Source of the DNA: Candidatus Stahliibacteriota bacterium | GTDB lineage: Bacteria; Hydrothermota; Tepidihabitantia; B3-TA06 | DNA length: 64,000 nucleotides | Assembly: GCA_004375895.1 (NCBI GenBank) | Contig: SOJW01000020.1 | Location: 65,170-129,169 of the forward strand | Reading direction: 5' to 3' | Part shown: piece by piece, positions 28,714 through 62,398 of the stretch | Layout: each line of letters starts with the position of its first letter | Numbering within the stretch: the stretch's first letter is position 1 | Notes under the pieces: model-generated | The model's input: the letters and a program-made list of their open reading frames with translations, nothing else | What the model was told of the DNA's origin: nothing | The model's database searches: none | Made by a program: the position numbers and the translations under genes

Positions 28714-28762
28714 GGAGTACAACAACCGTGTTGTTGTAGCAATGACACGGTCATTGCACTCC
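28714..28762. repeat. REP-like element A1 (two hairpins in an outer stem)
   Basis: The outer arms GGAGTAC and GCACTCC (28714-28720, 28756-28762) enclose hairpins AACAACCGTGTTGTT and AATGACACGGTCATT. It overlaps the 3' end of arsC and supplies its last codons and TGA. Confidence 0.85.
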
Positions 28763-29182
28763 ATAATCAGGGTCGGCTATGAACTCCTCCAGCTTTGTCC
28801 TGATCGCGTCCCTTACGGTGCGGAACTCACCCAGCACCTTCTCCTCGGTTCCGGATGCGCTGATCGGATCAGGGAACGGCCAGTGCAGGCTGGTGTCTGT
28901 TTTCCCGATGAAAGAAGGGCAGTTGTTCTCGCCGCATAACGAGATAACGTAATCGAAGGACTGGCCTTGAAATTCTTGCACGTGCTTTGAGCGCTGCCCG
29001 GATATGTCAACGCCCAGTTCACCCATAACCTGGATCGCATTAGGGTGAACGAAGCAAGGGATGATGCCTGCGCTTTCCACCTCGAACCGCTCGCCTGCAA
29101 GATGTCTTAGCAGCCCCTCCGCCATCTGGGAGCGGCATGAGTTGCCGATGCAGAGAAAAAGCACTTTTATCTTATCAGGCAT
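28751..29182 (-). CDS. arsC: Arsenate reductase, low-molecular-weight phosphatase type
   Basis: 143 residues. The phosphatase loop CIGNSCRSQMAEG is at residues 11-23, and the general-acid WPFPDP lies near 99. It reduces arsenate to arsenite using an intramolecular cysteine relay with thioredoxin. The family also contains tyrosine phosphatases, but the extra cysteines near 80-90 (SLCGENNC) favour ArsC. No arsenite pump is adjacent. The final GVQ codons and stop lie in a REP-like element. Confidence 0.85.
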   Translation of the reverse strand: MPDKIKVLFLCIGNSCRSQMAEGLLRHLAGERFEVESAGIIPCFVHPNAIQVMGELGVDISGQRSKHVQEFQGQSFDYVISLCGENNCPSFIGKTDTSLHWPFPDPISASGTEEKVLGEFRTVRDAIRTKLEEFIADPDYGVQ

Positions 29183-29196
29183 TTACAGATTATTTT

Positions 29197-29220
29197 GGAG
29201 TGCAACAACCGTGTTGTTGC
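29197..29220. repeat. REP-like element A2 (half copy)
   Basis: GGAGTGC plus the first hairpin (AACAACCGTGTTGTT) only. It lies just beyond the 3' end of the transposase gene, in the same orientation as A1. Confidence 0.8.
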
Positions 29221-29226
29221 GTCAAG

Positions 29227-29781
29227 CTAGAAATCATCATTGACATTGACACGACCCCAAGGATAATCTTGTTGTAGTTTTTTGAGGCGTTCTTCTTCAG
29301 TCTTTATTCTGTAATAATAACTCCCATGCGGATAATCTTCAGGATTTGGGACATATCCATGCTTTACCGGGTTGAAGTAAATGTAGTTTAGTCTGGCAAA
29401 GTAAGACCGTTCGTGAGTAATACATCTATCCCAGTAGTTCCAGAAGATTCTTTTAGCCGATTTCGCTTCCAAGGCATTTTTCTTTATCCAGAGAGCGGTA
29501 AAGCGATGGATTTCACTGATCATTTTGGATAAATCAGGATCCTCCTCAGGGGCTTGCAGCATCAGGTGATAATGATTGTCGAGTATAACCCAATCCTCCA
29601 ATAACCAGTTGGATTTATCGCATCCTTTAATTATGGATTCCAGGAGACGAGATTTGCTCTCATGAGAACTTAGAAAAGGCTTTTTCTGGTATGTAGAAGC
29701 GGTGATGAAGTATTTGGCTTTGGGGATGAACAGATGAGGTGGATTGTGTTTGTGCTGCTTGTAGATTAAATCATCGCTCAT
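29227..29781 (-). CDS. REP-associated tyrosine transposase (Y1, TnpA_REP)
   Basis: 184 residues of the Y1/HUH superfamily. The metal-binding H70-Y71-H72 motif sits in DNHYHLMLQAPEE and the catalytic Tyr (about 133) in LNYIYFNPVKHGYV. Such enzymes (RAYTs) cut single strands at the foot of REP hairpins and are thought to spread them. Elements of one repeat family flank the gene on both sides (29197-29220 and 29798-29847), with further copies at 28714 and 62350. It looks intact, and it is somewhat more AT-rich than its neighbours. Confidence 0.92.
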   Translation of the reverse strand: MSDDLIYKQHKHNPPHLFIPKAKYFITASTYQKKPFLSSHESKSRLLESIIKGCDKSNWLLEDWVILDNHYHLMLQAPEEDPDLSKMISEIHRFTALWIKKNALEAKSAKRIFWNYWDRCITHERSYFARLNYIYFNPVKHGYVPNPEDYPHGSYYYRIKTEEERLKKLQQDYPWGRVNVNDDF

Positions 29782-29797
29782 TATACAACGCTATTCT

Positions 29798-29847
29798 GGA
29801 GTGCGACAACCGTGTTGTCGCAAGCAACGAGACGCTCGTTGCACTCC
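29798..29847. repeat. REP-like element A3
   Basis: The outer arms GGAGTGC (29798-29804) and GCACTCC (29841-29847) enclose hairpins GCGACAACCGTGTTGTCGC and GCAACGAGACGCTCGTTGC. The second hairpin differs from A1, but the compensating bases keep pairing. It lies between the transposase and copA. Confidence 0.88.
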
Positions 29848-62349: not shown

Positions 62350-62398
62350 GGAGTGCAACAAGCGTCTTGTTGCCGCAATGACGCGGTCATTGCACTCC
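62350..62398. repeat. REP-like element A4
   Basis: The outer arms GGAGTGC (62350-62356) and GCACTCC (62392-62398) enclose hairpins GCAACAAGCGTCTTGTTGC and GCAATGACGCGGTCATTGC. It lies between the mosaic subtilase and the orphan sorting domain, 33 kb from the transposase. Confidence 0.88.

Follow-up and report, generated by a model that had tools for sequence, protein, structure and literature searches.

A RAYT transposase and its probable partner family of TGGA-tagged, head-to-head REP doublets in a Candidatus Stahliibacteriota genome

REP-associated tyrosine transposases (RAYTs, or TnpAREP) and their REP hairpins have so far been studied mainly in Proteobacteria, in systems that use a GTAG guide. 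Roles have been assigned to the guide-binding residues of the E. coli enzyme, yet W94, Q95 and R104 among them are not universal, and some RAYT subclasses lack these residues (PMC6006769). REPINs consist of two inverted REPs, with a spacer between them, in a unit of 71–110 bp that folds into one long imperfect hairpin; their doublets outnumber singlets, the singlets resemble decayed doublets, and each family is tied to a specific RAYT (Bertels and Rainey 2011, PMC3116915). In head-to-head dimers of GTAG REPs, such as GTAG-17 of Opitutus terrae, the tags lie outermost and the spacers measure 1–2 bp, and heterodimers with different stems also occur in GTAG families (PMC3733652). The REP of Stenotrophomonas REPtron Sm (group 3) is a perfect 8-bp palindrome with a 3-nt loop and a 5' tetranucleotide guide, GTAG (PMC8266576), while TnpAREP subclass 2.6 and class 3, the latter with the tag CnGA, have atypical, non-GTAG structures near the gene (PMC6006769). 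The partnership between a RAYT and REPINs is known; what is distinctive at the locus described here is a TGGA tag together with an altered tag-reading stretch of the protein, not the three-way junction that its repeats can form.

The DNA analysed (the window) is a stretch of 64,000 nucleotides from contig C5 of a 2.2-Mb draft genome of a Candidatus Stahliibacteriota bacterium (G000). Judged from its sequence and predicted fold, the open reading frame on the minus strand at 29227-29781, encoding 184 amino acids, is a RAYT, i.e., a Y1/HUH transposase. It matches Pfam Y1_Tnp (6e-8) and NCBIfam REP_Tyr_transpos (109.5 bits, cutoff 80), and it scores 21.5 bits against transpos_IS200, under the cutoff of 55. 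A sequence search leads to the E. coli TnpAREP-REP complex (PDB 4ER8, E 1.3e-11), which is also the best fold match of a predicted model (pLDDT 87, E 1.5e-11). The HUH motif is N69-H70-Y-H72, an NYWD motif ends at D118, and the catalytic tyrosine, Y133, lies within NYIYFNP; N69, H70, H72, D118 and Y133 are invariant in an alignment with 24 homologues. As expected of a RAYT, the gene is flanked by REP hairpins that recur throughout the genome, and it is a single-copy resident without IS-like spread: G000 holds one close copy, and its other RAYTs are 21–28% identical to it. The E. coli enzyme shares the fold, the HUH motif, the catalytic tyrosine and YIYxNPVKHG. However, where it has the guide-binding stretch WQPRFWEHAIR, the protein described here reads FWNYWDRCIT in the alignment, so that W94, Q95 and R104 are not retained; NYWD is found instead, with Thr at the R104 position. 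Since these residues are not universal, their loss limits the subgroup of the protein and not its membership among RAYTs. The enzyme also lacks the DHxH/WQ/YI[VI]ANP motifs of the Stenotrophomonas REPtron Sm subclass (PMC8266576), and none of the tabulated TnpAREP subclasses matches its combination of NHYH, NYWD and YI(Y,W)xNP (PMC6006769).

Each REP unit of the associated repeat consists of a tag, T-N-T-GGAGT, followed by a perfect 8-bp stem and a 3-nt CRY loop, so that stem, loop and 5' guide are laid out as in REPtron Sm. Two types can be told apart by the stem apex, CAAC in the A-type and YGAC in the G-type. A full copy is made of two inverted units with the tags outermost, usually 1 nt apart (0–2 nt typically, 0–23 nt over the full range), and can be described either as a compact REPIN or as a head-to-head dimer of REPs. 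The conserved doublet element, T-N-T-GGAGT ... ACTCC-A-N-A, exceeds the arms noted earlier, and the sequence outside it is random. GTAG or GTGG at the hairpin foot, which defines the GTAG superfamily, is absent; instead, the tags read TGGAG, TGGAC or TGGAA.

In agreement with the family profiles, the sequence-only reading had recognised a Y1 transposase between a half copy and a full copy of the repeat. The half copy, a single A-type unit on the plus strand at 29197-29220, lies 6 nt past the transposase stop codon, and the equivalent site in the related genome G001 carries a single unit and a full doublet. The full doublet, on the plus strand at 29798-29847, lies 17 nt upstream of the start codon and joins an A-type unit (29798-29821, plus) to a G-type unit (29824-29847, minus) over a 2-nt spacer, giving 50 nt; the other full copies in the window measure 49 nt, with a 1-nt spacer. 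Both of the further copies reported are present, again as plus-strand doublets. The one at 62350-62398 pairs an A-type unit with an AAG/CTT apex (62350-62373, plus) with a G-type unit (62375-62398, minus). The one at 28714-28762 comprises an A-type unit (28714-28737, plus) and a G-type unit (28739-28762, minus), but starts with GGAGTAC and not with the GGAGTGC ascribed to it; the partner base is altered as well (...GTTGTTGT), a compensated stem base in the A-type unit. This copy overlaps the end of an arsenate-reductase-like (arsC-like) reading frame (28751-29182, minus): the doublet's right arm encodes the closing Gly-Val-Gln-stop (GGA GTG CAA TGA), so that the repeat provides the stop codon.

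The genome-wide search proposed earlier showed that the copies are many. The full-copy pattern gave 15 exact matches in G000 against none for a reversed control, and a one-mismatch search for single units found 53 REP units, again with none for the control. Combining a relaxed outer-stem search with the unit search brought the totals to no fewer than 27 doublets and 13 singlets, a singlet/doublet ratio (13/27) below the value of 2 used to recognise REPINs. Gene-context sorting placed 26 copies within mechanically called reading frames, some possibly spurious, and the gaps holding repeats were mostly tandem or convergent (1 of 39 scored was divergent). The doublets of G000 all combine an A-type with a G-type unit, save one with a G-to-C variant, and none is A/A or G/G. 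The expectation that known RAYT/REP pairs are simpler is not supported, as GTAG REP dimers with 1–2-bp spacers and heterodimers had already been described (PMC3733652, PMC3116915). Like REPINs, the doublets pair two inverted REPs as a unit, outnumber singlets and go with a specific RAYT, and the singlets look like decayed doublets; they differ in their 1-nt spacing, in forming two perfect and separate hairpins, in being obligate heterodimers and in the TGGAG tag. With the head-to-head GTAG dimers they share the outermost tags, the minimal spacers and the use of different stems, and differ in the tag, TGGA[G/C] in place of GTAG.

The hairpins vary between copies while pairing is kept, as had been proposed. 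Tested on 32 distinct copies of 49 nt, the structure with two hairpins leaves 99.1% of cells paired and 8 of 21 pairs changed on both sides (33 cells), values that 0 of 500 shuffles reached and that lie well above those of slid versions, the relatedness of the copies limiting what the shuffles prove. Folding the same copies as a single long REPIN hairpin paired 84.8% of cells with no double-changed pair, and this structure was rejected. A compensatory difference also separates the orthologous copies G000 C18:30584 and G001 C10:5059. In single-stranded DNA folding, the minimum is indeed two hairpins within one outer stem (z -5.2 and -5.7 for two copies). With the copy counts and their controls, these results set the pattern apart from chance. 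The step from this fold to a three-way junction as an unusual substrate, recognised whole and unlike known RAYT systems, appears improbable. In its favour, the junction is the minimum-energy fold of the WOR-3 copies, and the tight 1-nt spacing and obligate heterodimer are uniform. Yet the outer stem is invariant across the 32 copies and shows no covariation, which makes it neutral as evidence on pairing, and of the 30 doublets next to transposases of relatives, 17 have a broken fifth pair (TGGAG/CTCCA) because the right tag there is often TGGAC. Moreover, spacers reach 23 nt, single units persist and the doublet of G032 favours another fold. Two identical tags facing outwards produce a three-way junction by themselves, and shared tags account for the outer stem without selection for pairing. 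Selection is therefore taken to act on each tagged hairpin as a unit, with the junction arising as a side effect of the head-to-head placing. The fixed heterodimer raises the question of distinct roles for the two REPIN ends. There is a small chance that it is asymmetric in function, with GGAG on one side and, in relatives, often GGAC on the other marking left and right ends recognised jointly by one enzyme lineage, and with the junction-folded doublet serving as a single synaptic substrate, a situation undescribed for RAYTs.

What the earlier reading overlooked is the unusual pair of features, a non-GTAG tag and a matching change in the protein. Homologues of the transposase come from records of WOR-3, Planctomycetes (including Scalindua), Marinimicrobia, Cloacimonadota, Firestonebacteria, Nitrospirae, Deltaproteobacteria, Tenebribacter and Zophobacter, and NYWD-type enzymes are present in at least eight phyla. 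TGGA-tagged hairpins occur within 160 nt upstream of the gene at 21 of 28 loci, downstream at 25 and on both sides at 20, compared with 8 of 331 control windows; their stems vary by host, and the overall design is retained. When all RAYTs in the fetched loci were sorted by motif, 24 of the 27 NYWD proteins had TGGA hairpins, none had GTAG and three were undecided, while the nine WQ proteins divided into five with GTAG, one with TGGA (L266) and three undecided (Fisher 4e-5 for decided cases only, kinship being ignored). Comparison of these sequences thus indicates that the repeats of the NYWD lineage are tagged TGGA[G/C] in place of GTAG and that the presumed tag-reading region of the protein has changed alongside. 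With guide and presumed reader both altered in a lineage spanning many phyla, the guide-recognition code becomes testable by comparison and by loop swaps. Like TnpAREP subclass 2.6 and class 3, this lineage keeps non-GTAG structures near the gene. The literature searched, which takes in part of the RAYT-group papers, contained no paper pairing a GGAG tag with a RAYT, and an earlier mention is possible.

Besides this gene, G000 encodes three or more further full-length RAYTs, all of the WQ type, and one fragment (C32:5890, C5:12061, C59:12300 and C45:79721; L264, L266-L268). GGAGTGC was absent near the three full-length genes; GTAG hairpins (such as GTAGGGGCCGACC...GGTCGGCCC and GTAGCGCGGGCTCTCAGCCCGCG) adjoin most of these other RAYTs, and repeats of a similar kind turn up again in the stretches of intergenic DNA that were inspected. 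In G039, from another family, a separate repeat set of about 25 near-identical, probably recent units has different stems and the same design, with doublets at all four loci examined.

Genomes with an intact gene hold more copies. G000 and G001, whose transposases are intact and identical, have 53 and 50 REP units, compared with lower numbers in other genomes of the genus: 17 in G002, where a frame change and a stop interrupt the gene, and 15 and 7 in G003 and G004, in whose drafts a close transposase gene went undetected. Copies are thus much rarer where the gene is broken or undetected; equal numbers would have told against the pairing. Elsewhere, G005 had one unit, G006 five, G039 19 and G052 one, and nearly all other genomes had none. 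These counts fit enzyme-driven amplification and decay after gene loss, although fragmented MAGs may miss the gene through incompleteness. Between G000 and G001 (1.5 Mb) or G002-G004, no clean empty/filled site was found, only broken versus full doublets, and many copies are old and common to members of the genus. The flanking intergenic DNA in this comparison is a mosaic of other repeats with too rapid a turnover, and mobility of the doublets is what we infer. Singlets are broken doublets at the orthologous sites G001 C2:102013 and C18/C115/C171, the latter compared with G000 C7:83455.

Taken together, the locus is very probably a REPtron, i.e., a RAYT gene with a cognate REP family arranged as compact REPINs. 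Studied REPtrons bind single-stranded hairpins, cleave as the guide directs and are inactive on the inverted unit (PMC8266576). By analogy, whenever DNA becomes single-stranded, as the lagging-strand template does, the HUH-Y1 enzyme would bind one hairpin per strand with its 5' tag, leaving the inverted unit on that strand without enzyme activity. The tag may act as a guide choosing the cleavage dinucleotide, as GGAG retains the A3G4 that picks C|T in GTAG systems. The REPINs would then transpose and spread in trans through the resident, single-copy gene, and half copies would be broken doublets.

It is very improbable that the doublets are instead MITEs or IS200/IS605-like elements, moved as such by the enzyme through a left and a right end. 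Each doublet does have two distinguishable ends and the HUH-Y1 fold resembles IS608 TnpA, yet its hairpins are inverted, unlike IS200/IS605 ends, which lie on one strand, and the single-copy transposase fits the RAYT model and not that of transpos_IS200. Least probable is that the repeats work at the RNA level as terminators or as stabilisers of mRNA, with selection on the RNA hairpin and the transposase no more than a neighbour: known REPs can act on mRNA, and the compensatory changes and gap bias are compatible with this, but an Rfam search of the window returned two tRNAs only, without a match to the repeats, the tags and 3-nt boundaries fall outside the stems, and the flanking layout tracks the RAYT lineage across phyla.

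Further observations concern individual copies. The doublet at 62350-62398 sits at a synteny break, where the left and right flanks match separate G001 contigs (C3 and C14). In a Marinimicrobia MAG (L085), the unit by the transposase, downstream of 2532, has multiplied in tandem to give a long array of GATTGAGCATTGACACAGTC. At G001 C2:140636-140740, another repeat is nested within a GGAG unit, in its loop region, and the orthologous unit in G000 is intact.
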